From IMG/VR virus record IMGVR_UViG_3300035698_027961, positions 1-64,000 of that record: a stretch of 64,000 nt of DNA. One strand, 5' to 3'. This DNA comes from a virus. The notes under the pieces were generated by a model that worked only from the letters and a program-made list of their open reading frames with translations, was not told the origin of the DNA and did not search any database. The translations under genes were made by a program, and so were the position numbers. This document shows, piece after piece, positions 567 to 24,660 of this stretch (its first letter is position 1; each line of letters starts with the position of its first letter).

Positions 567-567
567 A

Positions 568-1476: not shown

Positions 1477-1485
1477 TATAGCTCC

Positions 1486-2871: not shown

Positions 2872-3064
2872 CTAAGGCAATCTTTGACTTTAGAATAACA
2901 AGCTGCGTAATTAGTTTATCAAGCTGCTCTTGATTAAGATTGGCGGTGATAATAATACTTGACTTATCTAGATTTCTGGCTCTAATAGATAAGTCTATAC
3001 CCTTCTTGAAATTTTCTTTAACTTCAATATAGTCACGAGTTTCATTATCAACCACTATCTTCAT
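2864..3064 (-). CDS. Hypothetical small protein
   Basis: 66 aa, starting one base after the PIN-PhoH stop codon with AAGG just upstream inside that gene's end. The predicted pattern is beta strands then a helix ('NLNQEQLDKLITQLVILKSK'). It overlaps the next gene by 8 bases, so the PIN-PhoH gene, this gene and the next form one coupled operon. No family recognised. Confidence 0.6.
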   Translation of the reverse strand: MKIVVDNETRDYIEVKENFKKGIDLSIRARNLDKSSIIITANLNQEQLDKLITQLVILKSKIALDE

Positions 3065-3065
3065 G

Positions 3066-4382
3066 TTACATTACCTTTGCTGCGTAAGTTGCGAGTGCGC
3101 TTCGTTCACCCTTGATCAATCTAATATGACCAGAGTGAGGAAACTCCTTGAATAGCTCAACTACCGAAGCCAGTCCGGATGACTTTTGGTCAACCGAAGG
3201 TGAGTCAATTTGCTCAAGGTCTCCAAGTAGAATAATTTTTGAGTTATCGCCCATCCTAGTTAAAAGAGCTTTGGCCTCATGATGAGTAATGTTCTGTGCC
3301 TCGTCAACAATAAAGATACAATCAGGCAAAGTTCTTCCTCTAACATAGGCTAGAGACTCTAATTCAATTATACCTTTTTCAATCATTCTATCGATATAAT
3401 CCATTCCCTTACCAGCAGTAATAACACTCAAGTTATCAAATATTGGCTGAAGCCACGGACGAACCTTTTCTTCTTTTGTTCCGGGTAGGAATCCGATATC
3501 CTTACTGGTGCTCTGAGCGGGACGAGCAATGACCAATTTCTTATACTTCTTAGTGTGAATCATACTCATAGCTGAAGCAATAGCGAGCAGCGTCTTTCCT
3601 GAGCCGGCCATTCCAGATATAGAAACCATCTGAATCGCTGGGTCCAGAAGAAGCTCTAAGGCGATAACTTGCTCCTTAGACCTTGGTATAATTCCCTCGA
3701 CTTTGATATCTCTATCTCCGGCATACTTTAGCTTCTTGACAACGTTATTATCGCAAGCAATGGCTAGAGCACTCTTCTTACCAGACTTTAGCACAACTCC
3801 CTGATTTGGATATAGCTTTGGAAAGAAATCATCTTCGCTAAGATGAAGCTCGCCATTAGCATAGAACTCATCAACCATATCAATATCTGCATCGACAGTT
3901 ATCAGGCCATCGTAGAAAATATCATGATCTCTTAAGCCACCCTTAGAAAAGCTCTCAGCGGGTATTCCAAGCGTGTCGCATCTAACCCGAAGTGATATGT
4001 CTCTGCTTACTACGACGGCCTTCTGACCGTCTTTGATGAGCTTTGCAGCTACAGATATGATACGGTTATCATTAGTGTCTGGAAAATTACCGCTAAGCAA
4101 ACCTATATCCGAAAAGTTTGCGACAAAAATTGTCTGTTTGCCATCAACCTTAACGCCTTTAACTAGGCTTCCCTGCTCTCTTAGGCCGTCTAGATACTTA
4201 TTTACATATCTACAGTTGCCTCCGACAGTATCCATTCTAACCTTAAGGTTGTCGAGCTCTTCGAGAACCTCTAGGGGAATATAAACATTATGACCCTCAA
4301 AGCTATGTATCGATTCGCCATGATAAGCGAGAACCGATGTGTCAAGAACATAATTTTTTCTCTTCGAGGAAGGTGATGGCAT
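3066..4382 (-). CDS. phoH2: PIN-PhoH family protein (PIN nuclease fused to PhoH ATPase)
   Basis: 438 aa from the ATG at 4382, which has GGAG upstream; a longer in-frame GTG start at 4397 lacks one. The N-terminal PIN domain has its acidic residues: Asp in 'YVLDTSVLAY', Glu/Asp in 'PLEVLEELDNLK', and Asp in 'DTNDNRI' and 'VSRDISLRVRC'. The C-terminal half is PhoH: Walker A 'GMAGSGKT' near residue 260 and Walker B 'IFIVDEAQN' near 365. PIN-PhoH (PhoH2) proteins are reported to be ATP-dependent RNases/RNA helicases. In phage a role in RNA turnover is plausible but unproven. The length fits the bacterial family, so it looks intact. Confidence 0.93.
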   Translation of the reverse strand: MPSPSSKRKNYVLDTSVLAYHGESIHSFEGHNVYIPLEVLEELDNLKVRMDTVGGNCRYVNKYLDGLREQGSLVKGVKVDGKQTIFVANFSDIGLLSGNFPDTNDNRIISVAAKLIKDGQKAVVVSRDISLRVRCDTLGIPAESFSKGGLRDHDIFYDGLITVDADIDMVDEFYANGELHLSEDDFFPKLYPNQGVVLKSGKKSALAIACDNNVVKKLKYAGDRDIKVEGIIPRSKEQVIALELLLDPAIQMVSISGMAGSGKTLLAIASAMSMIHTKKYKKLVIARPAQSTSKDIGFLPGTKEEKVRPWLQPIFDNLSVITAGKGMDYIDRMIEKGIIELESLAYVRGRTLPDCIFIVDEAQNITHHEAKALLTRMGDNSKIILLGDLEQIDSPSVDQKSSGLASVVELFKEFPHSGHIRLIKGERSALATYAAKVM

Positions 4383-4955: not shown

Positions 4956-5945
4956 ATGAACAAAGAATTATATGAACTTATGAGTTTTTTAATTAAAAAT
5001 AATGAAAAAGATTACGCGCATATGGTTGCATCATTAATTAAAAATGCAAATAAAATTATGAGCAGAGAAGAACTTATGGCCAGCCAAAAACTTGAAGGGA
5101 AGTTACAATATATGATTAGACATATCGCAAAAGATATGCTCGGATTTGAAAATAATGATGATATTGATGAATTCACGGAAAGTGTGTATCATGAAGTTTA
5201 TGATTTTGTTTCTGAATTTATACTTAATTGTTCTTCTAATTTTGGGCTTGAGAACAAAATCGATCTTAATGAAGAGGCTGAGGATATGTCCGCATATTGG
5301 CTATTTTTAAATTATGACTTGAAGCCGATCGTCCTGCACGCCCTCCGACAAGGAGGCCTAATTAGCGGCGATCATGATATTGAAGACTCAGATTATATTA
5401 GCTCCATATTTGCTGAATACTTCTCATACCAGGAATACGCATTACCCAGAGATAAAAATATTTATATGATTAAGTCGCTAGACGACATTAAGAAAGCCTC
5501 TGAGGCAGCGGAAGTTAGATATAATAACTATATCAGAAGCAGCCTGGTTAAGCAGGATGATAATCTTGTCTGGATCTTTGAGAACGAAGATTGGAAGGTT
5601 TGTGAGGCTCACTCTTACTTTGCGGCCGTCAAGGCCGGATGGGGAACTAAGTGGTGTACCACAGATAGAGTTAACGGAGAGGCAGATTTCATGAATCACT
5701 ATAGGCCGGACTCACCTTTGGTTATTTTTATGAGCAAAAATAACCCTAAAGAAAAATATCAAGCTACATATTGGGAAAATGCGTTTCATGATGCTGAAGG
5801 TAATCCGGTTCGGGATAAGTATAAGATATACAACCTTTCAAAATTGATTGCCGACAGACCCTACGTTGATTTAAACGCGATAAAAAATAGGCTTGGAATA
5901 GATGTTGGCGGTGGCTATGTATCTTCCGAGAAAATTAATCCTTGA
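4956..5945 (+). CDS. Hypothetical protein with GTxWCT motif
   Basis: 329 aa, the second of only two real plus-strand genes. The N-terminal half is mostly helical and acidic. The C-terminal half contains 'WGTKWCTTDR' followed by aromatic-rich strands ('LVIFMSKNN', 'YQATYWENAF'). I associate a G-T-x-W-C-T motif with uncharacterised phage proteins but cannot name a function. GAGG lies 11 bases before the ATG. Its 3' end overlaps the convergent endonuclease-like gene by 11 bases. It may be an accessory gene, given its orientation between oppositely oriented operons. Confidence 0.7.
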   Translation: MNKELYELMSFLIKNNEKDYAHMVASLIKNANKIMSREELMASQKLEGKLQYMIRHIAKDMLGFENNDDIDEFTESVYHEVYDFVSEFILNCSSNFGLENKIDLNEEAEDMSAYWLFLNYDLKPIVLHALRQGGLISGDHDIEDSDYISSIFAEYFSYQEYALPRDKNIYMIKSLDDIKKASEAAEVRYNNYIRSSLVKQDDNLVWIFENEDWKVCEAHSYFAAVKAGWGTKWCTTDRVNGEADFMNHYRPDSPLVIFMSKNNPKEKYQATYWENAFHDAEGNPVRDKYKIYNLSKLIADRPYVDLNAIKNRLGIDVGGGYVSSEKINP

Positions 5946-7419
5946 CCCAAAGCCTCTGGCCGGCATCGTATATCTTATACCACCCTTTCTCTTCGGCGTA
6001 TTCTCTTTCCGACAAACACCTGGGATCCATATTGGCTCGGCAGCTGAGCCTATTAAATGTATTAGCGCCATCGGTCCACTTCCACCCCAGGGTATCTCTC
6101 TGCTTCTCAAACCCGAGAGCCTTAAGATAGTTACCTGTCCCATACCTTAAGTCAGCCCAGTAATGAATTGGTAGACCATGAAGATTTTGAATTGCATAAA
6201 GCATCTTGCCTGCCCCTCCAACGACGGTCGTATTGTTTTTAGAGCAGAATCTTTCGATTTTAATTTTATCTTTATAGACTCGATAAGACATCGCCGAGAC
6301 CAATTCTCCGTCATGAAATAAACCAAAAGTTCTGGCATTAACCGATCCCATTAGATGGTTGGTCTCAAAGAACCATGAGTATACATCTCTTGGGACGTTA
6401 TCCAGTTTTGTCTTTCTGGCGAAGATTCTTTTATTCTTGCCAAGTACATTATTTATCATTGATTGTATTATATCAAATTTGTTGAGCACCTCATCTTCCC
6501 TGAACTGAATTATTCTAAGGTTGTCCAGCCCCTCGTAATCAGCCCTCATCTTATAATGATATCGCTTATCTTTATTTTTTTCTGAGTGCCAATAAAGTCC
6601 ATCAACGTTGATAGCAGTTCTATTATCTAATTTGAAGTCTGGCCGATATCTTAACAATGGGTACTTAGAGGCATCAAACAGATAATTATAAGGTTTTAAT
6701 CCTGAACGACTGGAGAATATATTTTCTAGAGCCGTATGCTTAGCTTTAAAATTCTCAGTTGCAGATATAATATCTTTATCGGAAAGGCCATCCGAGATCT
6801 TATAGATTGAGGCAGGAGATATCCCGGAGTCAAGACACATTTCATTTATTGTCTTTCCATTTTCAAGAACCTTAATGCTACCATTCTCAATCTTAGTTTG
6901 AATTACAGATTCTTTAATCTTTAAATTCTTCATCGGGTGCTCTACGCCATATTTACCAAGGCATGTCTCTATGGCTTTATTATTTAGCTCTTCTACATTT
7001 CTTGGATTAGCTGCACCATAGCGCTCAATCATGGTCTCTTTTATCTTCTCTTTAACTTCCTCTGATGAAAAGGCGGACTCCGAACCAAATCTTACAAGAT
7101 TCGACTTCTTCATCTTCTCGACTCTGGATTTCTGAAGAATAGCCGAATCTTTTACTATAGAATTATTTCTTAGAGCGCTAGCTATAGTTGGGTCAGTAAC
7201 GCCAGCTATAGCAGCAATCTCTGTGGTCGTCATATTCAGCTCTATATAGTGATGATGCAGCCACTTGTAATTTAAATAATCTTTAGATTTAGATAAGGAA
7301 AATTCTTTAACTTTACTAGATATATATTTATGGCTTTTATTGGTTATTACTGCAATTTTATTAATGCTAAGATTTTGCTCGATATATAGTTTTTGAAGCC
7401 TATCTTTATCTAAAGTCAA
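5935..7419 (-). CDS. Homing-endonuclease-like protein, copy 1 (HTH, Vsr/EDxHD-like nuclease core, GNAT-like C-terminus)
   Basis: 494 aa, TTG start at 7419 with GAGG six bases upstream. Order of parts: two helix-turn-helix-like segments (about 1-85); two short repeats of the kind 'IERYGAANPRN' and 'CLGKYGVEHPMKN', common in DNA-binding parts of homing endonucleases; a nuclease-like core with 'RYRPDFKL' and 'NVDGLYWHSE' near 255-275 and 'RIIQFREDEV', resembling Vsr/EDxHD folds; and a C-terminal domain with 'YWADLRYGTGNYLKALGF' resembling GNAT proteins. It begins 12 bases after nrdB, a classic free-standing homing-gene position. A close paralogue lies at 17820-19268. Nuclease activity is inferred, not shown. 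Confidence 0.8.
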   Translation of the reverse strand: MTLDKDRLQKLYIEQNLSINKIAVITNKSHKYISSKVKEFSLSKSKDYLNYKWLHHHYIELNMTTTEIAAIAGVTDPTIASALRNNSIVKDSAILQKSRVEKMKKSNLVRFGSESAFSSEEVKEKIKETMIERYGAANPRNVEELNNKAIETCLGKYGVEHPMKNLKIKESVIQTKIENGSIKVLENGKTINEMCLDSGISPASIYKISDGLSDKDIISATENFKAKHTALENIFSSRSGLKPYNYLFDASKYPLLRYRPDFKLDNRTAINVDGLYWHSEKNKDKRYHYKMRADYEGLDNLRIIQFREDEVLNKFDIIQSMINNVLGKNKRIFARKTKLDNVPRDVYSWFFETNHLMGSVNARTFGLFHDGELVSAMSYRVYKDKIKIERFCSKNNTTVVGGAGKMLYAIQNLHGLPIHYWADLRYGTGNYLKALGFEKQRDTLGWKWTDGANTFNRLSCRANMDPRCLSEREYAEEKGWYKIYDAGQRLWVKD

Positions 7420-7431
7420 TTTATACCTCGT

Positions 7432-8385
7432 TTACCAGTTCCATTCTCCACTCATTCCATCTGCACTATAGTCAGTCACCCTTTTCTCAAAAAAGTTAGA
7501 TAAGCTGTCTCCGTTCAGAACCCAGTCTAGCCATGGTAGAGGATTCTCCTCGGTTTTAAAGATTGGCTTTAATCCAATTTGATTTAATCTTCTATCAGCA
7601 ATGAATCTAATGTATTGCTTGACTTCGGCACCTGAAAGGCCGGGAGCATCTCCAAGCTCATAAATAAGATCGATCAGTCCATCTTCTAGCTCAACTGCCT
7701 TTTCAAACATCTCGTAGATACTTGACTTAAATTTATCATTGACAATTCTCGGATGCTCTTTACAGTACTCTAGAAATAATTTGGAGATCCCCTGAACGTG
7801 AAGGGTCTCATCTCTGATGGACCACTCAACAATCGTACACATTCCCTTCATCTTTCCAAACCGTTGGTAGTTTAGCAACATAACGAATGCGGAAAATAAA
7901 CTCATTCCTTCGTTGCAAACCGATTGAGCTAGAGCCAGTCCGAGTCCGGTTGCCGTCCTAACATCATTCTTCTGCATAAACTCAATCTTTGAAACCATCT
8001 CTTTGTACTTTAGAAAAGCTCGATACTCAGACTCATGCATTCCCAGGGTATCATTCAGTAATGCATAAGCCCTCTGATGAATTGCTTCCCTGGAGGCAAA
8101 ACTCATAAGCATTTGCCTGACTTCATGATTCTTAAACTGAGGAAGAAATAGGTCGCAGTAATTAGACGCAACCTGACAGTCCATCTGAGTAAACAATCTT
8201 AAAATCTGAGTAATGTGTTCCTTCTCGACATCATTAATCTCTCCACCCTTCCACTGATTAACGTCTTCCTGAAGTTCGGCCTCCCACTCTCCCCAAAAAA
8301 CTTTATCTGATTGAATTGCATACTCAATTGCCCAGGGGTATTGAAATGGACGATATGACTCTGCGTGATTTACTAGCCCTGGCAT
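7432..8385 (-). CDS. nrdB: Ribonucleoside-diphosphate reductase small (beta) subunit
   Basis: 317 aa from the ATG at 8385, which has GAGGAG upstream; a GTG at 8394 would leave no spacing. The di-iron ligands and tyrosyl-radical site of class I beta subunits are visible: 'MDCQV' (Asp), 'REAIHQRAY' (Glu, His and the Tyr four residues after His), 'CNEGMSLF' (Glu) and 'RDETLH' (Glu, His). It provides the radical that NrdA uses to reduce ribonucleotides to dNTP precursors. The start overlaps the end of nrdA by 13 bases, so the subunits are translationally coupled. The length is typical of phage NrdB. Confidence 0.95.
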   Translation of the reverse strand: MPGLVNHAESYRPFQYPWAIEYAIQSDKVFWGEWEAELQEDVNQWKGGEINDVEKEHITQILRLFTQMDCQVASNYCDLFLPQFKNHEVRQMLMSFASREAIHQRAYALLNDTLGMHESEYRAFLKYKEMVSKIEFMQKNDVRTATGLGLALAQSVCNEGMSLFSAFVMLLNYQRFGKMKGMCTIVEWSIRDETLHVQGISKLFLEYCKEHPRIVNDKFKSSIYEMFEKAVELEDGLIDLIYELGDAPGLSGAEVKQYIRFIADRRLNQIGLKPIFKTEENPLPWLDWVLNGDSLSNFFEKRVTDYSADGMSGEWNW

Positions 8386-10151
8386 GCTAAGCACTCCTCT
8401 TCTTCTGACTTTACGTAATCTGTTAAACTTGCTTTTTCCATTTTCTGACTAACTTTATCTGGGTCTACAGATGATGTCGTTCTTAGGTAGTAAAGACCCT
8501 TAAGGCCCTGCTTCCAGGCCTGAAGATGAACCTTCATAACGAACGACTTATCGGTTCCGTTAGGGAAGAATAGATTGACCGACTGACCCTGGCAGATAAA
8601 TGGCTGCCTATCTGCCGCGTGCTGAACCACCCATTGTTGATCGATTTCAAATGCGGTCTTAAAGACTAACTTTTCATACTCGGATAGAAACTCTAGATGT
8701 TGAGCGCTTCCTGCGTTAGTGATGATTGAGCTCCAAACCTGGGCTCTTTCATCCTCCGGAACTCTGTCATTAACAATCTTTTCTAGATATGGGTTGGTAA
8801 CTAAGTGAGAGCCAATTCTAGTTCTGTGAGTATATGCGTTTGACTTTCTGGGCTCAATTGATGGAGACGTGCAAGCAATAATTGAGCTGTTGGCATTCGG
8901 AGCTATTGCTAGAAGGTGGCTATTTCTTTTATTGTCTAGATCTCCAGCATCAGGATAGGTTCCTCTTTCTTCGGCTAGCTCGACAGAAGAAGCGATAGCG
9001 TCTCGATTAATTCGCTCAAACATTTCCTTATTGATTCCGGTGGCTATCGCGGACTCCCATGGAACTCCCAGCTTCTGAAGGTAAGCGTGAAATCCCATCG
9101 CGCCCAGGCCGAGGGATCTTTCCCTTTGGGCGCTATAAGTAGCTCTACTTAGTGTATCTGGAGCGTTTTCAATAAATGCGTCAAGAACATTATCTAGCAT
9201 TCTAATCATATCCTTGACTAAATTGGTATCTTTCCACTCGTCATACTTTTCTAAGTTAAGGCTGGAAAGGCAGCATACAGCTGTTCTGTCAGCGGATGTC
9301 GGGAGATGAATCTCATTGCACAAATTTGAACCGTTAATCTTTAAGCCCAGAGCCTTAAGTGATGCCGGAAGATGCTTGTTTGCAGTATCAATAAAGTTTA
9401 AGTATGGCTCGCCGGTCTTAAACCTGGTCTCAATTATTCTCTGCATTAAATGACGCGCCTTAACAGCCTCCTTTACTTCTTTGCTGGCAGGATCAATTAG
9501 ATCCCACATATCTCCATTTACTACGGCCTTCATAAAATCATCAGTCAGGTTGACTGCGTTATGAAGGTTAAGGCACTTACGATTCGGGTCTCCACCGGTT
9601 GGGTCTCTGAAGTTAATAAACTCTATGATATCAGGATGGGAAATATCCATATAGGCGGCGTAAGATCCCTTTCGCGTCTTTCCCTGACGAAATGCGTTCA
9701 TATCCGCATCTACTGTTTTTAGGAATGGTATAGGGCCAGGAGACTTATCAGAAATAGATCTGACTTCGCTCCAGTGGCCGCCAACTCCGCCACCCTTGAC
9801 GCTGAGCCATCTTAGCTCCGCACTATGATCGATGATTCCTTCTAAATTATCCGGAACCATGCTTAGAAAACATGATATTGGAAGAGCCTTCCATTTTCCG
9901 CCCGGTGCCGGAGAGTTTGATAAGATGGGGCTAGAGAACATAAAATAGCCTAAAGAAACATAGTCATAAATTCTTTGAGCAAATTCCAAATCACCCTTGG
10001 AGGTAGATGCTGAAGCTCTAGCAAGACCCTCCTGGATGGATTCACCATCAGCTAAGTAGTATTTCCTTAATAGAGTTTGGGAAAATTCATCTAAAAGTGA
10101 ATCTCTATCCTGTTCAATTTTTATTCCATAAATGTAGTTATCCGTAGACAA
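8373..10151 (-). CDS. nrdA: Ribonucleoside-diphosphate reductase large (alpha) subunit
   Basis: 592 aa, TTG start at 10151 with GGAGG five bases upstream. The catalytic Asn-x-Cys-x-Glu is in 'SNLCNEI' near residue 277; the paired active-site cysteines lie in 'PISCFLS' (about 94) and 'AVCCLSSLN' (about 294); the redox tail is 'CLACQG' at the very C-terminus. It is shorter than E. coli NrdA (761 aa) and begins without the N-terminal ATP-cone, so dATP feedback control through that domain is probably absent. This is common in phage enzymes and would favour high dNTP output. The thioredoxin gene at 27247 could reduce it. Confidence 0.95.
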   Translation of the reverse strand: MSTDNYIYGIKIEQDRDSLLDEFSQTLLRKYYLADGESIQEGLARASASTSKGDLEFAQRIYDYVSLGYFMFSSPILSNSPAPGGKWKALPISCFLSMVPDNLEGIIDHSAELRWLSVKGGGVGGHWSEVRSISDKSPGPIPFLKTVDADMNAFRQGKTRKGSYAAYMDISHPDIIEFINFRDPTGGDPNRKCLNLHNAVNLTDDFMKAVVNGDMWDLIDPASKEVKEAVKARHLMQRIIETRFKTGEPYLNFIDTANKHLPASLKALGLKINGSNLCNEIHLPTSADRTAVCCLSSLNLEKYDEWKDTNLVKDMIRMLDNVLDAFIENAPDTLSRATYSAQRERSLGLGAMGFHAYLQKLGVPWESAIATGINKEMFERINRDAIASSVELAEERGTYPDAGDLDNKRNSHLLAIAPNANSSIIACTSPSIEPRKSNAYTHRTRIGSHLVTNPYLEKIVNDRVPEDERAQVWSSIITNAGSAQHLEFLSEYEKLVFKTAFEIDQQWVVQHAADRQPFICQGQSVNLFFPNGTDKSFVMKVHLQAWKQGLKGLYYLRTTSSVDPDKVSQKMEKASLTDYVKSEEEECLACQG

Positions 10152-10369: not shown

Positions 10370-10912
10370 TTATTCATCTTTTTTATCGGGGTTGAATTGC
10401 CCCGTGTACTCTCCGTTCTTCCAAACTCGAACCATATTTGTCTGCTCAGAAAGAGTAAAAACAGCAAGAACATCCTTCCTGGTTGAGAAGGATGCCGCTG
10501 TAATATGTCGGGTTCCGGTACCTTCAGGAATTCCTAATGTTGGATCATCAACAGTTAGATAAACTTTGTCACCTATAACTTGACCATCCTGATTAATAAT
10601 GATGGCTCCATCATCACCCGAGTCAAATATTGTAACGCAATCTTCTTTAAACTGCGGAAAGTTAACATTAACATAAATATCCATCTTATCATTTGTTAAC
10701 TTTCTCATGCCCTCGACCGAAGTTGTATTGGCAGAACCGAAAACACCCAGGACTATCATCGCCCCTACCTTATTCCCCTCTTTAAAATTCTTTTCAGATA
10801 TCTCTGTTAAGTATGTATATATTTTCTTCTCCGTTTTCTCTCTAGCTAAATTAAGCTGAAATGAAAAATCAATTACCGGCCCCCTTCCTGGCGCTACGTC
10901 TTCGGATTCCAT
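10370..10912 (-). CDS. Diadenylate cyclase (DisA_N/DAC) domain protein
   Basis: 180 aa. The central part aligns by eye with DAC domains that join two ATP into c-di-AMP: 'VGAMIVLG' (49-56) corresponds to the family 'GALIV', 'DDGAIII' (100-106) to the DGA motif, 'GTRHITAA' (133-140) to GTRHRAA, and 'TLSEQTNMVRVWKNGE' to the SEE-NG end of the domain. The last Arg of the RHR motif is Ile137 here, so activity may be altered. There is no membrane segment (unlike CdaA) and no DNA-binding helices (unlike DisA), so a soluble stand-alone cyclase is likely. It lies 74 bases after the SpoVR gene. The fold is fairly sure; catalysis is untested. Confidence 0.82.
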   Translation of the reverse strand: MESEDVAPGRGPVIDFSFQLNLAREKTEKKIYTYLTEISEKNFKEGNKVGAMIVLGVFGSANTTSVEGMRKLTNDKMDIYVNVNFPQFKEDCVTIFDSGDDGAIIINQDGQVIGDKVYLTVDDPTLGIPEGTGTRHITAASFSTRKDVLAVFTLSEQTNMVRVWKNGEYTGQFNPDKKDE

Positions 10913-10986: not shown

Positions 10987-12378
10987 TCAATACTTTAGAA
11001 ATCCCTCGTGGTTAAATCCATAGCTGATGGAGTAGCCCCTTTCGTCTTTTGTTTTGATAATTACTTGACCTCCCCATATTTGCTGCAGATACTCAGCAAC
11101 CTTCTCAATATGCTTCGGGTCCAGTGTTCCAACGTCAGCGCTCTCGTGAATAAGCCTTAGTCTTTCCTGGCTTGCTGAATCAATATAAATTAAAGGAGTT
11201 CTGTAGTTATATATTTTTGCAGCTTGGCTCTCAACTACATCTTTTGCACTTCTGCTTTCAATTTTAATATATTCATCTTTATTTCTGTCGTAATCTGTCT
11301 TATAAGTAAACATTTCAAGCCTATCAACAATTTCTTGAGTAAGGTACTTTCTTAGAAATGATATGTCGTCCTCTTCTGAGCAAACCTCTAAGATCTTTTC
11401 AAAACCGGTTATGATTGACTCGCCATGCTTATACTTTAGATCCCACTTCTCTTTTATATCATTCAAAATAGTGAAGCCAAGAAAATAAGGATTTATATCG
11501 AGCTTACTTCCTCCCGGCTGAACAACTCTTTCATGAATCTTGACGAACTCGATATACTCTGATGGCGATAGATGATCTTCTCCCATCAGATACATTAGCT
11601 CAGCATGAATATAGCTAGCTAAGCCCTCGTTCATAATCTTTGTATAGTATTGCGGATAGAAATAAAATGACTCCTCTCTAATAATATTAAAGATGTCCTT
11701 TTCCCATGGCTCTGCGCTAGAATAATTGGCTAAAAACCACAGCAGATCATATTCTTTTGATGGCGGGAAACTATCATTCATAATCTTTTCTTCGTATCCG
11801 AGATTATCAATTCCATATAGATCATCAAACTCACCCTGTTCCTTTTTCTGAAGAACCTTTTTCTTAGGCGCATACTTGGGACGATGAACACCCTTATGCC
11901 AGTCTATATTCTTCTCTAGAGCGAAAGCAATGTCCATAATTCTCTCTACTTTCTCAATTCCATATTGGGATATGTACTCCTCAACCTTTTCCGCCCTCTC
12001 TGCGGCACGCATAACCATGCCACGGTCTGTCTTTTTAAATAGATAATTATTTTTAAAGAAATGGTTATGACCGAGAACGTGAGCTATAACCATGGTGTTG
12101 GCAATATCAGAATTTGACTCAAGAAGAAAAGCTCGGCAGGGATCTGAGTTTAGCACTAATTCATATACCTTAGACGTTCCCATGGTTCCCTGAATCTTCT
12201 GATACTCATAGCTCTGTCCGTAACTCCAGTGCCTAGCTCTAACCGGAAGTCCGTAGCTCATAATCTCTAAAAGAACTTCTTCCGGAACTACTTCCCAGAT
12301 GGTCTCAAACATATCTAGACCCATCTCTTTTGCCTTCTCAACAAACCATTCAGCCCTATCTGCTAAAACTTTCTTCAT
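10987..12378 (-). CDS. spoVR: SpoVR family protein
   Basis: 463 aa, close to the cellular SpoVR/YcgB length (about 470-510). Family hallmarks: 'MSYGLPVRARHWSYG' (40-54), 'YELVLNSDPCRAFLLE' (72-87) and the His-rich 'IAHVLGHNHFFKNN' with His100, His104 and His106. The biochemical role is unknown. In Bacillus it is needed for normal spore cortex, and in enterobacteria (YcgB) it is co-regulated with YeaG/YeaH under stress. Its ATG overlaps the stop of the DUF444 gene in a TAATG junction, showing the operon link. A full-length copy in a phage argues for a working protein rather than a relic. Confidence 0.93.
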   Translation of the reverse strand: MKKVLADRAEWFVEKAKEMGLDMFETIWEVVPEEVLLEIMSYGLPVRARHWSYGQSYEYQKIQGTMGTSKVYELVLNSDPCRAFLLESNSDIANTMVIAHVLGHNHFFKNNYLFKKTDRGMVMRAAERAEKVEEYISQYGIEKVERIMDIAFALEKNIDWHKGVHRPKYAPKKKVLQKKEQGEFDDLYGIDNLGYEEKIMNDSFPPSKEYDLLWFLANYSSAEPWEKDIFNIIREESFYFYPQYYTKIMNEGLASYIHAELMYLMGEDHLSPSEYIEFVKIHERVVQPGGSKLDINPYFLGFTILNDIKEKWDLKYKHGESIITGFEKILEVCSEEDDISFLRKYLTQEIVDRLEMFTYKTDYDRNKDEYIKIESRSAKDVVESQAAKIYNYRTPLIYIDSASQERLRLIHESADVGTLDPKHIEKVAEYLQQIWGGQVIIKTKDERGYSISYGFNHEGFLKY

Positions 12379-13553
12379 TATTTCTTGTCCTTCTTGGAGT
12401 TGTCAATGTTGAAAAACTTTTTAAGACCTGCGTAAACATCGTCATTCTTTTTAAACTGCATCGACATAAATCTGGTTCTTTTAATGTTCTCATTAAAGTA
12501 ATTTGATAGAAGCTTTTCGGGCCTAAACCATGCGCTATCAGTACTCTTATCCAACATTACTTCGCCATAACCCATGGCCCTGACTAGTGGCATTAGCTTC
12601 TCAGCATACTCTAAACATATAATATTGTCATCTGAATAGTTATCACCATCACTGAACTCGAAAACATAATTATTCCACTCATCAGGAGAATGATGAGTTT
12701 TTATATGGTCATAGGCGAACTTGAATGATGAACTGCAGCATGTTCCGCCAGACGCACTAATGGTAAAGAATTCTTTCTCAGTGACTTCAAAAGCTTTAAT
12801 ATCATGAGCCACAAATACCAATTCTATTTTCTTATACTTTCTTCTTAAAAATTGAACCATCCAGAAGTAAAAAGACTTAGCTATATGAGTCTTTTCCTTA
12901 TCCATGGAGCCGCTTCTATCCATCATTAAGTATATTGCTGCATTAGAATGATAATCTTTCTCTTCTTCCCAATCTTTAAACCTTAAATCTTCTTTTTTGA
13001 AGACTCCAACCTTAGGATTGCCTTTGGCCGCGTTTCTCTTTAAGTTTTCTTTCAAACTTCTCCTGATATCTATGCTGGAAAAGGGACCCTTCTTTGAAAT
13101 AGAATTAACTTCATCATTAGTAATCTCTACCTGCGTGTTATTCTTAGGATCAATCCACGGAAGGTCTAGCTCATCCAGCATAATATTGACAAGCTCGTCT
13201 ACAGTAATTTCGGCTTCAAAGATTCTTTCACCATCTTCATTGCCGGCAGGACCATCTTGGTCTCCGTTACCTTTCTTGATTTTAAACTTATCACCTGGCT
13301 GTCCAGCTAGCCCCTGACCAGTTCCCGCTTCATCATTAATTTTCCCGTACTTAAGCCTATACTTATCAAGGAATTTGATTGGCACCTTTATCTTTTTGTC
13401 GCCGTCAGACTGAATGATGTCGTACTCTGTAATGAGCTGCTTACCATTCGTTCTGATAGCCTTCTCGACCAGCTCTTTGTGCCGGTCTGAGTCTCTCTTG
13501 CCTCTCTTTTTAAGGCCCCAGATATCTGAAAGGCTATCATACTTTTGAGTCAT
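12378..13553 (-). CDS. yhbH: YhbH/YeaH family protein (DUF444, von Willebrand A-like)
   Basis: 391 aa. An N-terminal charged region and a Gly-rich linker lead into a vWA-like domain with a MIDAS-type 'MMDRSGSMD' near residue 212, later 'ISASGGTCCSS' and 'EFSDGDNYSDD', all typical of DUF444 (YeaH in E. coli, YhbH in Bacillus). These proteins are encoded between PrkA and SpoVR in many bacteria, and the same order is kept here. It probably acts as a metal-dependent protein-interaction partner of PrkA. The start follows AAGGAA, 12 bases after the prkA stop. Confidence 0.93.
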   Translation of the reverse strand: MTQKYDSLSDIWGLKKRGKRDSDRHKELVEKAIRTNGKQLITEYDIIQSDGDKKIKVPIKFLDKYRLKYGKINDEAGTGQGLAGQPGDKFKIKKGNGDQDGPAGNEDGERIFEAEITVDELVNIMLDELDLPWIDPKNNTQVEITNDEVNSISKKGPFSSIDIRRSLKENLKRNAAKGNPKVGVFKKEDLRFKDWEEEKDYHSNAAIYLMMDRSGSMDKEKTHIAKSFYFWMVQFLRRKYKKIELVFVAHDIKAFEVTEKEFFTISASGGTCCSSSFKFAYDHIKTHHSPDEWNNYVFEFSDGDNYSDDNIICLEYAEKLMPLVRAMGYGEVMLDKSTDSAWFRPEKLLSNYFNENIKRTRFMSMQFKKNDDVYAGLKKFFNIDNSKKDKK

Positions 13554-13565
13554 TATAGTTCCTTG

Positions 13566-15470
13566 TTACTTAGAGGCCATTAGGGAGCTTACATATCGAA
13601 GCAGCTGGTTAGCACTTTCAGTATTGTACTGATACTTTTCACATAGGGTTTTGATTACAACGTTGATCTTCTTGAGCTCTTCCTCATCAGGATTTCTGGA
13701 AGATACTGTCATCTTAATAACAGCGGAACGCTCTTGAAATAGCTGCTTCTCTAGGGCATCCTTAAGAGCCGGGTGATCTTGATAATTGGAGTTGCTTCTA
13801 AGCATCTTGCGGAATATCTCCTGACGGAAAGACCTCTTTCCGGATTCGGAAATTCCAACCTTCTCTTCGATGCTTCTCATCAGTGGCTCGCTTGGCTCCA
13901 CTGTATTTCCCCATTCATCAGACACCTGACCTCCGTCTAGGAATGCTTCGGCGTGCTGCATATAATTGGATAGAAGATTCTTAATTTCATCCTCAAAGTT
14001 AACAAAGAAAGCCTTCTGAACATCATTCTTTGCCATCTTCTCGTACTCCTCAAGAACGTATAGAAGAACATTCTCAAGTCTTTCGGATTCCTTCTTATCT
14101 ACCTTCGGATTGCTCTTAAGGCCATCCTTCAGTGATCGAACGATATCTAGAGGAGTGATTGATGATAGATTATCCTCAGATAGCTTTGAAGAAATTCTAT
14201 TGATAACGTATCTAGGTGAAACTCCAACCATTCCCTCATCATCAAATTCTTTTTTAAACTTGGAAGACTCAGCCTTAGTAAAGCCCTCAACGTCCTCATC
14301 ATTATACATCTTCATCTTCTTGAGAAGTGATAGTCCCTGGTTATTAGATTCCTTAAGGCGAGATAAAATTGCAAACATTGCAGCGCAGGTTAGGGTGTGA
14401 GGAGCAATATGCCTTCCTTCAAAGTTTGCCTGGTTAATCAACTTCTCATAGATCTTGACTTCACTGTCAACAGAAAGATTATATGGAACCTTAACAACAA
14501 TAGTTCTATCGTGAAGTGCCTCCATCTCATCCTTGGCTAGAAATCTTTCAAACTCTGTAAAGTTGGTATGAGCTACGACAAACTCATCAGCCCAGATAAG
14601 AGGAAATCTTCCGGTCTTAATATTCTTTTCTTGGGCCAGGGTTAGAAGAACATACAGAAACTTCTGATCAACCTTAAGCATCTCAACGAATTCCATAATT
14701 CCACGGTTAGCTACGTTGAGTTCTCCATCAAAGCGGTAAGCTCTAGGGTCTGATTCGGAGCCATATTCTCCAACGGTACTTAAATCAATGGAGCCAACTA
14801 ACTCTGAAATATCTTGGCTCTTTTTATCGGAAGGAACAAAAGTACCAATCCCGATTCTTCCGCGCTCAGAGAAGAACGTTCTTTTGACTGGCAACTTCAT
14901 AAAGTCACCATGGTACTTCTCCTTCAGAACTAGATCCATAATAGGGCTCAGGTTGCCGTCAATCTTGATGCCATATTCACTGTGAAATGAATGCCTCAGA
15001 TCTTCAGGAATTGCGCACAATGGGTCCTCATGCATTGGAGACTCGGAAAGTGAAAATGTTGCTCCTTCGTCTGTCTTGGAAAATTGCTCAAGGCCCCTCT
15101 TTAGAAGAATGGCTAGCTGAGACTTTCCGGAAGAGGTTGGTCCGTACATTAATAGAATTCTGCGGCTAACTTCACTGCCAGATGCCGCAGCTCTAAGATA
15201 GGACATTAGATCATGAATTGGCTCATCAACTCCGAAGAGGTCTTCTTCGAAGAATTTGTACTTTACAATGTTTCCGGATTCATCTCTATCAACTCCCCTG
15301 GAATCAATCATCCTGAGTACTCTTTGGTGTGCAGTCATATGAATCTTTGGATTATTGGTGACAATTTCTATGTAATCCTTTAGTGTTCCTGACCACTCAA
15401 GGCTCTTACTAGCCTCAGCGTGATCGCTAAGCCTAGATAAAAAATTATCGAATTTACTTATTTGAGCCAT
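13566..15470 (-). CDS. prkA: PrkA/YeaG family AAA+ serine protein kinase
   Basis: 634 aa, matching cellular PrkA (about 630-645). The AAA+ part has Walker A 'GPTSSGKS' at 110-117 after the family-typical 'FFEEDLFGVDEPI', then 'LPVKRTFFSERGRIGIGTF', 'ELVGSIDLS', the 'NVANRGIMEFVEMLK' box and 'PLIWADEFVVAHTN'. The C-terminal half corresponds to the PrkA C-terminal domain. E. coli YeaG and Bacillus PrkA are linked to nitrogen-starvation/stationary-phase survival and sporulation; kinase activity is reported for the family. It is the first gene of the three-gene module with DUF444 and SpoVR. GAGG lies nine bases before the ATG. No truncation or frameshift is seen. Confidence 0.95.
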   Translation of the reverse strand: MAQISKFDNFLSRLSDHAEASKSLEWSGTLKDYIEIVTNNPKIHMTAHQRVLRMIDSRGVDRDESGNIVKYKFFEEDLFGVDEPIHDLMSYLRAAASGSEVSRRILLMYGPTSSGKSQLAILLKRGLEQFSKTDEGATFSLSESPMHEDPLCAIPEDLRHSFHSEYGIKIDGNLSPIMDLVLKEKYHGDFMKLPVKRTFFSERGRIGIGTFVPSDKKSQDISELVGSIDLSTVGEYGSESDPRAYRFDGELNVANRGIMEFVEMLKVDQKFLYVLLTLAQEKNIKTGRFPLIWADEFVVAHTNFTEFERFLAKDEMEALHDRTIVVKVPYNLSVDSEVKIYEKLINQANFEGRHIAPHTLTCAAMFAILSRLKESNNQGLSLLKKMKMYNDEDVEGFTKAESSKFKKEFDDEGMVGVSPRYVINRISSKLSEDNLSSITPLDIVRSLKDGLKSNPKVDKKESERLENVLLYVLEEYEKMAKNDVQKAFFVNFEDEIKNLLSNYMQHAEAFLDGGQVSDEWGNTVEPSEPLMRSIEEKVGISESGKRSFRQEIFRKMLRSNSNYQDHPALKDALEKQLFQERSAVIKMTVSSRNPDEEELKKINVVIKTLCEKYQYNTESANQLLRYVSSLMASK

Positions 15471-15480: not shown

Positions 15481-15774
15481 TCACTTTTTATATGGATTTA
15501 ACTTGTCACCGTAGATATCATCCATGGCTCGCCTATCGCCAGACCGGACCTTCTCTACAGTTTTTCTAACTTCTTCTTTTGCGTCCATCATTATCTGGTC
15601 GCGGTCCTTGTCAACAGTGCCGCTGACAGCAATTATCTTCTGATATAGTACTCCATTTTCACAAACGGTGCATTTTATTTTCTCTTTTTTTAATCTGACA
15701 AATTCAGGAACGCTGTAATGTCTGGATTGTATATCGTTGCATGATTCGCAACAGAATGTGTATTTAGGCATCAT
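15481..15774 (-). CDS. FmdB-like zinc-ribbon protein
   Basis: 97 aa from the ATG at 15774, which has CCGGAG six bases upstream; a TTG at 15789 lacks a ribosome site. It begins 'MMPKYTFCCESCND' and has a second pair in 'KCTVCENG', a four-Cys zinc ribbon like the FmdB/regulatory family (MPxYxYxCxxC). The remainder is a charged helix. Such ribbons are common in phages next to replication genes; the function is unknown. It sits 10 bases upstream of prkA and may be co-transcribed with it. Confidence 0.75.
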   Translation of the reverse strand: MMPKYTFCCESCNDIQSRHYSVPEFVRLKKEKIKCTVCENGVLYQKIIAVSGTVDKDRDQIMMDAKEEVRKTVEKVRSGDRRAMDDIYGDKLNPYKK

Positions 15775-15952
15775 CGTCTCCGGACACAAATATTATCTTA
15801 TCATTCTCAATGATTAACTTTCCAGATAAAGAGAGATCCCTTAGTATTTTCTTTTTAAACTTAGGGTCAGTAATTGAAACAGTAAGTTCTAAAGAGCCAT
15901 CCTCTTCATTGAAGAGGATGTTTTTAATCTTGCCTACATTATTTTTCTGCAT
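15764..15952 (-). CDS. Hypothetical small beta protein
   Basis: 62 aa with alternating strands ('SLELTVSITD', 'GKLIIENDKIIFVSG') and an acidic end. It overlaps the zinc-ribbon gene by 11 bases and the preceding gene by 14, so all three appear translationally coupled. No family recognised. Confidence 0.6.
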   Translation of the reverse strand: MQKNNVGKIKNILFNEEDGSLELTVSITDPKFKKKILRDLSLSGKLIIENDKIIFVSGDDDA

Positions 15953-16455: not shown

Positions 16456-17820
16456 TTAACAACCATTTTCGTCACCATTATCATCAACCCAATTATCTGG
16501 AATACTAATCACCTTTGATTTCTCAAATTGCTTGAGTAGTTTAAACTCCCCTTTCGCACCATCTCTGTTCTTAACCACATGCAATGACATATCATCGATA
16601 AGGTGCTCGTCTTCTCGCTGCTCAATTAAAATAACAATGTTTGAGTTATCTCCAATCATCTTGCTTCGGCCAAGGTCATTTAAATCATTGCCGCCATTAT
16701 TCTTGAGCGCCTTATTCTTAGCCTTCCTCTGGGCCGCTGTTAATACAGCCATATTCTTGCTTCGGCAAAATTCATGTAGGTCTGCGGCGGTATGCCCAAC
16801 CTCTAGCCAGTCCTGTCCGAAGTCCCTATTCGGCTTCATAATTCCCAGGTAGTCGACTACCACTAAATCAGGCTCGAACTCTGATATGATGCTATCAAAG
16901 CGGGCTTCCAAATCCAATGTGCGTGAGCCGCGAGGCATGTCGACAATATAAAAGTGCTTATCGTAATTTTTCTGAAATTCCAGAGAAGCCTGCCACCTAG
17001 TTCGTTCTTCATCAGTTAAAAACCCCCTCATTAATGCTTTATGTCTTATGCTGGCAATGCAGGCATCGATTCTTTGCTCTAGCTGCTCCTTACTCATTTC
17101 CAACGTAAAATAGATAACGTTCTTACCATTGGCGAAGTTTTGCTTATTCTTATTGTACGCTATATTGCCACCAAGCCAAGCATTGATTGCATAATTCATC
17201 ATCAGCAGTGACTTACCCGACGAGCTCTCTCCCGAGATAACCATCATCTCTGATTTTTTAATTCCAAACGTATATTCATCAAGCTCCGGATATCCAGATA
17301 GAACACCAGATATAATATCCGGGTTGTTGACTGTGAAGGTATAGTTATTTAATCTAGTATCAGCCGACTTGGTAAAGTCACCTTCAGCGAATACGGCCGA
17401 CCTTCTCAGTCTCTCAATCTTGGATGTTGTCTTTAAGAGATTTGAGTTAAAGTCCTTTATGTCATCGTCATTATTTATCTCCTCTGCAGACTCGGCTAAT
17501 TTCTTAGCCAGTCTTTTATTGAAGCGATTTCTAACCTGGTCGACGTAATAAAGTATCTCGTTCTCTTCGCACTCTACGTCTTCAACTATTCCTGCAAGCT
17601 GAACCATATCGATGTCTTCCGCCAAGTCTTCCTGCAGAATCTTAAAGGAAGGTGGAGTCTTGTATCTTTCAAAATAATTAGTTATGGTTTCTAGCATCGG
17701 CTTGTAATCATAGTCTATCGCTTCTTTGAGAAGCTTTCCATCGATTTCTCTGGATACCTTGTTGTATTCTACCGACCCTTTCATCATCCATGAGAGTATT
17801 TTGTTATCTGCAACTGACAT
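16456..17820 (-). CDS. dnaB: DnaB-like replicative helicase
   Basis: 454 aa. The N-terminal helical region is followed by the RecA-like core: 'SGVLSGYPELDEYTFGIKKSE' region, Walker A 'GESSSGKS' at 197-204, 'VIYFTLEMSKEQLEQR' and Walker B 'PDLVVVDYLGIM', then 'VLTAAQRKAK' and 'GRSKMIGDNSNIV', the usual DnaB/gp41 motif order. It unwinds DNA at the fork, 5' to 3' in the family. The ATG shares a base with the stop of the endonuclease-like gene upstream (TAATG), and the DnaC-like loader lies just beyond it. Confidence 0.93.
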   Translation of the reverse strand: MSVADNKILSWMMKGSVEYNKVSREIDGKLLKEAIDYDYKPMLETITNYFERYKTPPSFKILQEDLAEDIDMVQLAGIVEDVECEENEILYYVDQVRNRFNKRLAKKLAESAEEINNDDDIKDFNSNLLKTTSKIERLRRSAVFAEGDFTKSADTRLNNYTFTVNNPDIISGVLSGYPELDEYTFGIKKSEMMVISGESSSGKSLLMMNYAINAWLGGNIAYNKNKQNFANGKNVIYFTLEMSKEQLEQRIDACIASIRHKALMRGFLTDEERTRWQASLEFQKNYDKHFYIVDMPRGSRTLDLEARFDSIISEFEPDLVVVDYLGIMKPNRDFGQDWLEVGHTAADLHEFCRSKNMAVLTAAQRKAKNKALKNNGGNDLNDLGRSKMIGDNSNIVILIEQREDEHLIDDMSLHVVKNRDGAKGEFKLLKQFEKSKVISIPDNWVDDNGDENGC

Positions 17821-19268
17821 TATTTTATCTCCAGTGTATATAGTCTCTGCCCGGCATCATAAATTTTAAACCATGAAAGCTCTTCGGCATATGCTCTTTC
17901 GCTTAATTTCCTAGAATCCATATTAGCACGGCACCTCAAACGATTATAGGTTTTATTAAAATCAGTCCACTTCCATCCGAGAGTGTCTCGCTGGTGAACA
18001 AATCCATAATTTTTCAAATGACATCCTGTTCCGTACCGAAGGTCTACCCAGTAGTTTACCCTCTTGGGGGCTAATTTTTTGATACAGTATTTTAGAAGTT
18101 TTGAAAATCCACCAACTACCAAATGATCTAGCTTGGTACTAACTCGCTCTACCTTTAGGTCGTCTCCAATCATTTTGTATGAGAAAACCATAACCAGTTC
18201 GTTTTGATAAGTTAGGCCGATGTGCTTAGACTTGATTGTTCCCATCAGATGGGTTGACTCCAGGAAGTCATTGGCTTCTGACTGAGATAAGCTAACTATC
18301 TCTGTCTTTCTGGCGAATATTCTAGCCGAATGACCCAGGTGATTGTTTACCACCGATTTAACAATATTCATCTTATAATTAATTTGGTCTTCGGTAAATT
18401 GAAATATTCTTAGCCCTAAATCCTCATATTCCTTTCTCATTTCAAAATGATATTTAGCATCTGACTTGTGCGCTGATGAATGCCAGTATAGGCCATCAAC
18501 ATTTGCCGCTGAGTAGGGGGTTAGCTTAAAGTCCGGCCGATACTTTAAGTGCGGATATGACAAGCAATCAAATGCCTTATTATAGAGTGGAAGATCTATG
18601 GTCTGAGAGAATATGTTTTCGATATTTGTTATTTTGGAAGAGTAATTTGCCACATACTCTAAAAACTGCTGCTCGGTATAGTTCGGATTTTTATAGATCC
18701 ACCTATAGAGTATGATATTCGATATTCCAATTTTGGATGCCCACTGGCACAAGCTTTTCTCACAAACAACTATCGTCTCAGAATTTTCATGATGAGCTTT
18801 GGAACCGAGATAGGTTCTGCTGCTATACTTCTTAAGATTGGTGACTTCTCTTTTTCTCTTAACCGATTCAGAAAGATTAAAGTGTTTAACTTTATATTTT
18901 TTTAAAGAAAGCTTCTTAACTCTAGACTTATAAGCTGTAGACTTATCTTCATCTTCTTTGCGAAAATTAAATTTATATAAATAATCAAAGATTGTCCCTC
19001 TATTTACACCGCATGATTCTGCAATTTCTACCGCAGTTTTATTCTGCTCGATATACTGGTTATATAGCCAATTATAATTTGTATAATTTGCTTTGGACAC
19101 TTTCTTGTTATTTTTAGATAGTCCGAAGCGGCTCTTATACCTAGACAGGGTCGACTCACTATAGCCAAACTCTTCGGCTATTTTCTTTATAGTCTTATTT
19201 TTAGTGACGTATTGTTCTTCAAGCCACTCCCTTACCCGGTATTTTTCTGAAGTCTTTTCCTGAGACAT
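17820..19268 (-). CDS. Homing-endonuclease-like protein, copy 2
   Basis: 482 aa, paralogue of the gene at 5935-7419 with the same domain order: two helix-turn-helix-like segments (about 1-105), a nuclease-like core with 'KYRPDFKL' near 244 and 'NVDGLYWHSS' near 258, 'RIFQFTEDQI', and a GNAT-like C-terminus with 'YWVDLRYGTGCHLKNYGF' and 'QRDTLGWKWTD'. The two proteins are nearly identical over the last segment but more diverged at the N-terminus, consistent with different DNA targets. It is wedged between the helicase loader and helicase genes, overlapping the first by 50 bases; AAAGG before its ATG lies inside the loader gene. Nuclease activity is inferred. Confidence 0.8.
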   Translation of the reverse strand: MSQEKTSEKYRVREWLEEQYVTKNKTIKKIAEEFGYSESTLSRYKSRFGLSKNNKKVSKANYTNYNWLYNQYIEQNKTAVEIAESCGVNRGTIFDYLYKFNFRKEDEDKSTAYKSRVKKLSLKKYKVKHFNLSESVKRKREVTNLKKYSSRTYLGSKAHHENSETIVVCEKSLCQWASKIGISNIILYRWIYKNPNYTEQQFLEYVANYSSKITNIENIFSQTIDLPLYNKAFDCLSYPHLKYRPDFKLTPYSAANVDGLYWHSSAHKSDAKYHFEMRKEYEDLGLRIFQFTEDQINYKMNIVKSVVNNHLGHSARIFARKTEIVSLSQSEANDFLESTHLMGTIKSKHIGLTYQNELVMVFSYKMIGDDLKVERVSTKLDHLVVGGFSKLLKYCIKKLAPKRVNYWVDLRYGTGCHLKNYGFVHQRDTLGWKWTDFNKTYNRLRCRANMDSRKLSERAYAEELSWFKIYDAGQRLYTLEIK

Positions 19269-23132: not shown

Positions 23133-24560
23133 CTATCTTTTGCGTCTCTTATCGATAATCGAATCTCTCTTGGTTCCACCACCCTGCAGCCTATTAAATC
23201 CAGAATTCTTACTCTTAATCTTTCGTTCAATTTCTTCCTTAACACTAGATACCTTATTCTCTTCTAGATCGAGAGTCATAGCTGATGCCCTGGACTTCTC
23301 CTTACCGGCAGCAATTTCAGTCTGAGCCTTGCTCTCTTTCTTTAGAGAATCGATTCTATCTTGAGGCAATCCAAGTCCGGCGAACCAGCTATAAATCTTG
23401 ATACCCTCAACAGATTCGTCAGAGTAAACACCCTGAAAAATGCTAGCTCCGTTAGTTTGCTCAGAAATAACACTGAACATATAGTCGATATTGATTGACG
23501 GCATCTCGCTTAATGCTTCCTCAGAGCCCAAGATGATGACTCCGCCAACTCTTGTCTGAGAGAGATCGAAACCTTCTGCCAACATGTTGCCGCTGAGACT
23601 ATCAATAACTGCTTCGGCCAGTGATGTTTCTTCCATATAGTCTTCTACATCGACAACTCCGTAAACAGAGCAGTCTCCTGCGGAAATTATTCTACCAAAG
23701 TCACTCGGGTCAAGAGAGGTGAACTTAGAAGGCTTGGAGGTTAAAGAGTTGAACAGACTTATGGGTTCAACTATTGCCTCATTTGCCTTGGCCCAGAACT
23801 GAGACTGACTTAGGCGATTGTAAATCTGCTCAATTCTGGCATTATCTACGACGACCAAGCTGGAGATCATATCGCCCGTAGTCATTCTTGCCAGCCTAGA
23901 CAAAGTTTCAATGGAGTTCTTCTTAGACTGAGCATCCTCAGTGGCCTTAGGGAGAACATAGATAACCCCTACGGGCATTCCTGTGCGAAACATGATGTCT
24001 ACCATAGTATCTACTGACGAGCTTCCGGAGCCGCCACCTCCGGAGATTGCTAGGAATAGCATATCATTACCGTCTGCAACCTTAGAAACAAAATCTTCTA
24101 AATCTTCTTCATGGGATGCGAAAATCTCTCTTCCCAGGTCTAGAGACTTACCAGTACCGCCTAATGATCCGGTAAGTAAAAGCTTTTGGCTCGGAAGAAC
24201 ATCAATGAATTCTAGGTCTTGAGCTGAAGTATTGATGACACCAACATCATATCCAAGTCTATGAAACTCTTCCGCAATTCTAGAGCCAGCCTGACCAACC
24301 CCAAGAATGCCCATATTAATACTTACACTTCTCTTGCTTACAACTTCTGGCAAATAATCCTCCCGAACCTCTTGAGATTCCTGTTTCTTTTGTGCTAGCT
24401 TCGCCTTAAGAGCGGCTAACTTGTCTTCATCGACATTTACCTTTCTCTCATAGTCTTCGCCAAATGCTTCTGATAAAACTTTATTATCCATCTCTACCTC
24501 TTCTGGTGTTTTGGGTTTCTTTTTATAAACGTGTTCCGTTATTGTTATTTTTTCATTCAT
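23133..24560 (-). CDS. Tubulin/FtsZ-superfamily GTPase
   Basis: 475 aa from the ATG at 24560, which has AGGAG six bases upstream; an in-frame start at 24587 lacks one. An 80-residue charged extension precedes the GTPase core: 'GILGVGQAGSRIAEEF' (84-99, T1 loop), 'GSLGGTGKS' (131-139), and the tubulin signature 'GGGGSGSSS' (174-182, T4 loop). 'SLDPSDFGRII' fits the T7 catalytic loop with its acidic residues, so assembly-coupled GTP hydrolysis is possible. The tail is strongly basic ('DKRRKR'). Phage tubulins such as PhuZ position replicating DNA, but PhuZ has an acidic C-terminal knob, unlike this protein. The exact family within the superfamily is open. Confidence 0.88.
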   Translation of the reverse strand: MNEKITITEHVYKKKPKTPEEVEMDNKVLSEAFGEDYERKVNVDEDKLAALKAKLAQKKQESQEVREDYLPEVVSKRSVSINMGILGVGQAGSRIAEEFHRLGYDVGVINTSAQDLEFIDVLPSQKLLLTGSLGGTGKSLDLGREIFASHEEDLEDFVSKVADGNDMLFLAISGGGGSGSSSVDTMVDIMFRTGMPVGVIYVLPKATEDAQSKKNSIETLSRLARMTTGDMISSLVVVDNARIEQIYNRLSQSQFWAKANEAIVEPISLFNSLTSKPSKFTSLDPSDFGRIISAGDCSVYGVVDVEDYMEETSLAEAVIDSLSGNMLAEGFDLSQTRVGGVIILGSEEALSEMPSINIDYMFSVISEQTNGASIFQGVYSDESVEGIKIYSWFAGLGLPQDRIDSLKKESKAQTEIAAGKEKSRASAMTLDLEENKVSSVKEEIERKIKSKNSGFNRLQGGGTKRDSIIDKRRKR

Positions 24561-24565
24561 CTTAT

Positions 24566-24578
24566 CTCCTAAGCGGAG
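24566..24578 (-). promoter_or_regulatory. Small hairpin covering the Shine-Dalgarno of the tubulin-like gene
   Basis: On the minus strand CTCC-GCTTA-GGAG forms a four-base stem whose right arm is the Shine-Dalgarno of the gene starting at 24560. A second ACCC/GGGT pair lies just upstream (24582-24597). Together they could slow translation initiation; stability is modest. Confidence 0.35.
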
Positions 24579-24604
24579 GCAACCCAAGATAGCGGGTGTC
24601 CCTG

Positions 24605-24633: not shown

Positions 24634-24660
24634 AAAATATAGTTTGCTTTTTTAATTATT
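24625..24660. repeat. 13-bp A/T-only inverted repeat at the end of the sugar island
   Basis: AATAATTAAAAAA (24625-24637) and its exact complement (24648-24660) flank a 10-base loop. The right arm includes the stop codon of the last island gene, and the left arm covers the -35 region of the next promoter. It may be a weak terminator or simply an AT-rich boundary. Confidence 0.45.

Follow-up and report, generated by a model that had tools for sequence, protein, structure and literature searches.

What does a phage gain from PrkA-YhbH-SpoVR, one of the most widespread stress modules of bacteria and one whose mechanism is still open? The question is raised by a stretch of 64,000 nucleotides (hereafter the window; positions 1 to 64,000 of IMG/VR record IMGVR_UViG_3300035698_027961), in which prkA, yhbH and spoVR lie side by side. 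The source record, a virus contig 79,311 bases long, includes genes for a baseplate wedge, for glycosyltransferases and for homing endonucleases. A first-pass annotation of the window had described the triad as full-length, tightly packed and in bacterial order. That reading stopped one gene short of a predicted diadenylate cyclase (DAC), the enzyme that synthesizes cyclic di-AMP (c-di-AMP). Several phage lineages carry the triad, and we find one clade that has it in every member found and adds the cyclase gene; the phage operon thus names c-di-AMP as a candidate fourth partner of the module.

The description of the triad held up against Pfam and NCBIfam models. The gene prkA (13566..15470, minus strand; 634 aa) encodes an AAA+ ATPase with a PrkA C-terminal domain, and two Pfam domains cover the full length of the protein (PF08298, residues 29-377, E 2e-113; PF06798, residues 383-626, E 1.8e-61). 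The product of yhbH (12378..13553, minus strand; 391 aa) is a DUF444, von Willebrand factor A (vWA)-like protein with the residues of a metal-ion-dependent adhesion site (MIDAS; PF04285, 3e-80; TIGR02877 YhbH, 1e-105), and spoVR (10987..12378, minus strand; 463 aa) encodes a metal-site protein (H100xxxH104, E251, H258; PF04293, 2e-103). The three are complete, adjacent genes in a co-directional run, with a gap of 12 bp between prkA and yhbH and a spacing of -1 bp between yhbH and spoVR, whose stop and start share one base (ATGA). Their order is that of most of the nearest bacterial operons, and the guanine-cytosine content of the module is like that of the rest of the window.

Directly behind spoVR, the next gene (10370..10912, minus strand; 180 aa) is predicted to encode a DAC, in the form of a soluble minimal domain with DGA and GTRH motifs. 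It scores 49.9 bits against PF02457 (E 2.9e-13; Pfam cut-off 27). The NCBIfam DacZ equivalog NF041371 also matches (E 5.5e-12), at 45.6 bits against a curated cut-off of 430 and over the C-terminal half of the model; lying so far under the cut-off, the protein was not filed as DacZ. A structural model of moderate confidence (predicted local distance difference test [pLDDT] 68, predicted template modelling score 0.70) had 72 matches in the PDB at E<=0.001, the best 50 of them all diadenylate cyclases. In the eight phage copies that were aligned, D101-G102 and G133-T-R-H136 are kept, with DGA replaced by DGS in one of the eight.

The window cyclase matched no protein in INPHARED and no diadenylate cyclase in PHROGs, and the viral structure library BFVD gave no significant match to it. 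Bacterial CdaA-type matches occurred in 22 INPHARED records; those listed were unannotated, at most about 50 kb long and probably represent host DNA. A full-text search of open-licence papers turned up no diadenylate cyclase described as phage-encoded. Judged by its sequence and predicted fold, the window gene would be the first known to us.

How general is the arrangement? As a clade marker, picked independently of the module, we used the DnaB-like replicative helicase encoded upstream (16456..17820, minus strand; PF03796, 5e-32; phrog_19, 7e-58) and took IMG/VR contigs whose DnaB is 48% or more identical to it. Seventeen contigs matched, and prkA stands beside DnaB in all 17 as well as in the window. 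Wherever contig and flank reach, prkA is followed by yhbH, spoVR and the cyclase, the sole exception being L204, which lacks the cyclase. Several of these contigs are near-copies, and we counted ~13 distinct phages, ~12 of which hold the cyclase directly behind spoVR. A single-sequence pattern scan for the cyclase returned nothing; a profile scan and a GTRHI pattern recovered the relatives, and the gene is present in six first-wave relatives (6/6), four further contigs and another six large contigs, 222-395 kb in length. The neighbourhood of DnaB, small genes, triad, cyclase and, mostly, ribonucleotide reductase recurs in related phage contigs of up to 395 kb. The clade members, all uncultured contigs of which none is flagged complete, are very large viruses of bacteria, apparently marine as read from the sample accessions. 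We sought phrog_2 in two clade records and obtained no match.

Are the genes intact? A column was taken as invariant when its conservation reached 97% or more among as many as 80 bacterial and 42 IMG/VR homologues. By this measure PrkA of the window retains 80/85 columns, YhbH 37/39 and SpoVR 40/40, and the loss of essential residues that could have spoken against the first-pass annotation was not seen. Its claim of intact motifs stands: the Walker A motif of PrkA (GPTSSGKS) is unbroken (G110, P111, G115, K116, S117), YhbH retains its MIDAS set (D212-x-S214-x-S216, T271, D302), and SpoVR retains H100xxxH104 plus N250/E251/H258. The third histidine of the SpoVR motif HxxxHxH (H106) is not family-invariant and is often D in bacteria. 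The predicted structure of SpoVR is good (AlphaFold2 pLDDT 89.6) and gave no significant fold match in the PDB, including none to a solved peptidase. A known metallopeptidase fold was considered for SpoVR and dropped: the PDB matches were all non-significant, zincins (DPP III, IrrE, Ste24) appearing only at E>1 and not being counted.

Pairwise ratios of nonsynonymous to synonymous substitution (dN/dS) within the clade are ~0.03-0.3; synonymous sites have reached or nearly reached saturation, which makes the ratios rough, yet they are well below 1. The triad is under purifying selection in the clade, and the kept residues together with dN/dS rule out degraded genes. Inteins are usually located at functional sites. 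Among the relatives, SpoVR inteins sit at the end of the motifs HVIGH, IAH and NEG-[FL]-A, and a PrkA intein sits at the end of FLLAH (carriers: spoVR of L009, L064, L166, L014 and L201; prkA of L014). The NEG-x-A site is also used in SpoVR genes of bacteria, mainly Ktedonobacterales, and the homologous inteins there are ~27-35% identical to the phage ones.

These data bear on the concern, raised in the first-pass annotation itself, that the region is host DNA assembled into a phage contig. Outside the clade, the closest homologues by identity are indeed bacterial, and one INPHARED record has yeaGH at its edge, adjoining prophage genes. However, 17 related contigs have the triad in the same place, flanked by phage genes, it is under purifying selection, and both the cyclase and the inteins are clade-specific. 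The recurring synteny refutes a host-DNA artefact, and we consider it extremely improbable that bacterial DNA was carried by chance or misassembled here. In the INPHARED record, L163 (MN688132, Enterobacter phage LAU1), yeaG-yeaH lie at the very start (1-3308) of a prophage-like sequence and are probably flanking host DNA.

Where, then, did the triad come from? PrkA is 67-75% identical among the clade phages, 53-55% identical to that of the nearest bacteria (Chloroflexota, Bacillota and a few Parcubacteria-labelled or unassigned metagenome-assembled genomes) and only 33-37% identical to that of Thermus phages. The flanks of prkA loci in the metagenome-assembled genomes, when spot-checked, held cellular genes. 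The phages form one clade (support 100) in the PrkA, SpoVR and YhbH trees, with the same bacterial set as sister (support 100/99 for PrkA, 100 for SpoVR and 92 for YhbH). Because the bacterial neighbours are the same in all three trees, a single transfer of the whole block is suggested; judging from these trees, the triad was probably acquired en bloc by the ancestor of this jumbo-phage clade from a Chloroflexota/Bacillota-like source. Thermus phages branch elsewhere in the tree, although the approximately unbiased test does not reject one clade uniting them with the window phages (p-AU 0.069). At the 80 nearest bacterial prkA loci, yhbH and spoVR are nearby in nearly all cases where the contig permits. 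A phage-type cyclase within about 8 kb of prkA was found at 0/80 of these loci, which rules out the cyclase as a common trait of bacterial PrkA operons.

What might the operon do? In E. coli, YeaG is required for sustained nitrogen starvation (PMC4664914), and B. anthracis PrkA is required for ionic-osmotic stress and sporulation (PMC13001217). c-di-AMP governs osmohomeostasis in bacteria and archaea, and haloarchaeal DacZ produces c-di-AMP and influences osmoregulation (PMC6741144). The explanation we favour, at a little less than an even chance, is that the phages carry a controller of host state, acting on starvation and ionic stress and equipped with a c-di-AMP arm, a function that we infer from these families. 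PrkA would assemble into an AAA+ ring powered by ATP, with YhbH as the vWA adaptor and SpoVR as a metal-site effector or substrate. The triad would remodel host proteins such that the infected cell stays tolerant of starvation and ionic stress, a state that the bacterial triad supports. The cyclase would serve this control as a second arm by raising c-di-AMP, which limits the uptake of K+ and osmolytes in bacteria and archaea. The likely benefit would be that a nutrient-poor, slow-growing host stays alive and in osmotic balance for as long as a protracted jumbo-phage infection lasts. The first-pass suggestion that the module locks host physiology or supports infection of slow-growing cells would fit, by analogy, the known role of the family. 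Kinase activity of PrkA is in dispute for the family itself: the B. anthracis protein, once purified, had neither kinase nor protease activity (PMC13001217). A more specific version, possible but on balance rather unlikely, is that phage-made c-di-AMP gates the PrkA-YhbH-SpoVR complex, together with a sigma factor in some relatives, and that the infected cell is left quiescent and ion-balanced. If so, the locus would provide both the first phage diadenylate cyclase known to us and a direct link between c-di-AMP and PrkA.

Several points weigh against host-state control with a c-di-AMP arm. The biochemical role of PrkA, YhbH and SpoVR is unsettled even in bacteria, and the connection between the osmotic roles of PrkA and c-di-AMP is circumstantial. 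The evidence consists of sequences, trees and predicted folds, and a functional tie between the cyclase and PrkA would be read from gene order only. No ydaO-type riboswitch or other Rfam RNA was found. The second arginine of the RHR motif is isoleucine in all aligned phage cyclases (GTRHI), against GTRHR in bacterial CdaA. GTRHI alone is no argument against activity, because the second arginine is likewise missing from haloarchaeal DacZ and from small DAC proteins, where the motif reads GTRHH or GTRHM. The remaining two points, that the 132-kb record L204 has the triad and no cyclase, and that the c-di-AMP receptor domains PF06153 and PF02080 (TrkA_C) were absent from seven phage records, also favour a cyclase that acts alone. 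Its c-di-AMP would tune host K+ and osmolytes or cell-wall physiology, in keeping with its regulation of osmohomeostasis (PMC6741144), and its place behind spoVR would reflect only that the genes are expressed at the same time. Yet the position directly behind spoVR is held in ~12/13 distinct clade phages, and the need for B. anthracis PrkA itself in ionic-osmotic stress (PMC13001217) hints at a shared process; we regard a cyclase independent of the triad as unlikely.

At least six of the cyclase-bearing clade phages have a sigma-70-like gene immediately behind the cyclase (coordinates include L012 12885-13619, L013 13223-13780 and L058 1974-2564), and the three of these genes that were scanned match Pfam sigma-70 regions 2 and 4; L014 has only a remnant and the window none. 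Such a gene is typical of takeover operons, and jumbo phages have many countermeasures to nucleotide signals (PMC7824862), both of which would suit an AAA+ machine that dismantles host defence or shut-off complexes while c-di-AMP disturbs immunity based on nucleotides or competes with it. These families, however, have no known defence target. The countermeasures known from phages work by degrading the signal or sequestering it, and we know of none that makes c-di-AMP. An anti-defence role is, in our view, quite improbable.

The genomic surroundings speak to a further alternative, in which the triad is an AAA+/vWA chaperone for phage morphogenesis or for assembly of an intracellular compartment, with PrkA as ATPase, YhbH as co-chaperone and SpoVR in processing or as scaffold. 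A pair of MoxR AAA+ and vWA-metallopeptidase proteins, encoded by jumbo phages of another group and with a precedent in an archaeal virus, has been proposed to act in assembling virions (PMC7824862). The block yhbH-spoVR-prkA of Thermus phage Lalka27b lies between portal/minor head genes and TerL, in phiYS40 the triad is near TerL and the tail sheath, and most large members of our clade encode a tubulin. In the window clade, by contrast, the triad lies between the replicative helicase and ribonucleotide reductase rather than among structural genes, the AAA+ family is PrkA and not MoxR, the neighbouring cyclase has no obvious assembly role, and no solved peptidase matches the SpoVR model significantly. 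The assembly explanation has real support but fits the replication-gene context of the clade less well than host-state control does, and we hold it to be unlikely. Taken with host-state control as the preferred explanation, the locus suggests second-messenger synthesis as a means by which large phages may manage host physiology.

The rest of the neighbourhood is as follows, on the minus strand unless stated. Upstream of prkA are a small putative zinc-ribbon protein with two CxxC pairs (15481..15789; 26-49% by tblastn in clade loci), which has no Pfam or PHROG match, and a small conserved open reading frame of unknown function (15764..15952; 48-56% by tblastn in clade loci). Downstream of the cyclase lie nrdA and nrdB, for the large (8373..10151; PF02867, 1e-114) and small (7432..8394; PF00268, 2e-66) subunits of ribonucleotide reductase. 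Homing endonucleases occur at 5935-7419 and 17820-19268, and the same type is found between module genes in L009-L011. Further along are a tubulin/TubZ-like GTPase (23133-24587; PF00091, 7e-12; TubZ-like C-terminal domain, 8e-7), of which a counterpart occurs in 6/7 relatives searched, as in spindle-forming jumbo phages, and a glycosyltransferase-like gene (24652-25644). A run of six more glycosyltransferase-like matches, all to phrog_2170 (37790-44343), has tail-sized genes upstream of it. On the plus strand, a trypsin-like serine protease of HtrA/MarP type with a signal-like N-terminus (1762-2586) gave weak NCBIfam matches.

How does the phage module compare with known systems? The novelty that the first-pass annotation implied for a phage-borne triad was too strong, as the triad had already been present in Thermus phages, in Ralstonia jumbo phage RsoM2USA and in huge phages; a 2026 review of jumbo phages (PMC13282480) mentions none of PrkA, SpoVR and c-di-AMP. 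Thermus phages phiYS40, TMA, phiLo, MN1 and Lalka have a triad of the same families, ordered yhbH-spoVR-prkA and in some of them close to terminase/portal genes; only 18 of the 40 invariant positions of SpoVR survive in all four phages compared, and no cyclase was found with the triad. The huge uncultured phages LR756511, LR745206 and LR756504 have PrkA, YhbH and SpoVR near one another, with the PrkA of two of the three belonging to a separate, deeply split type and that of LR756511 forming a long isolated branch. In RsoM2USA, SpoVR is ORF28 and PrkA is ORF30 (PMC8504454); no cyclase was found in RsoM2USA or the huge phages. The modules of Chloroflexota and Bacillota and E. coli yeaG-yeaH with ycgB share the three families and their invariant residues with the window, and the nearest Chloroflexota loci, beside which the phage genes branch, mostly share its gene order; the phage module differs in being phage-encoded and in having a DAC gene after the triad. 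That cyclase has in common with archaeal DacZ, Haloarcula plasmid DACs, bacterial CdaA/DacA, CdaM and DisA the DAC domain, DGA and GTRH, an LSE near the end and the predicted fold, but it is only ~180 aa long, lacks membrane helices and the DNA-binding part of DisA, has GTRHI for GTRHR and is 23-25% identical to the DacZ type. Haloarchaeal plasmids (L160, L161 and L162) carry DacZ or short DAC genes, and a 185-aa Haloarcula plasmid DAC resembles the phage cyclase in length and at the motif, which reads GTRHM-SA there. In jumbo phages of group 2.2, the MoxR-vWA(-metallopeptidase) pair (PMC7824862) likewise joins an AAA+ ATPase to a vWA partner. The window triad was not assigned to that chaperone, its SpoVR having no significant peptidase fold match: here the AAA+ protein is of the PrkA type, the vWA protein is DUF444, the third partner is another one, and a cyclase is added.

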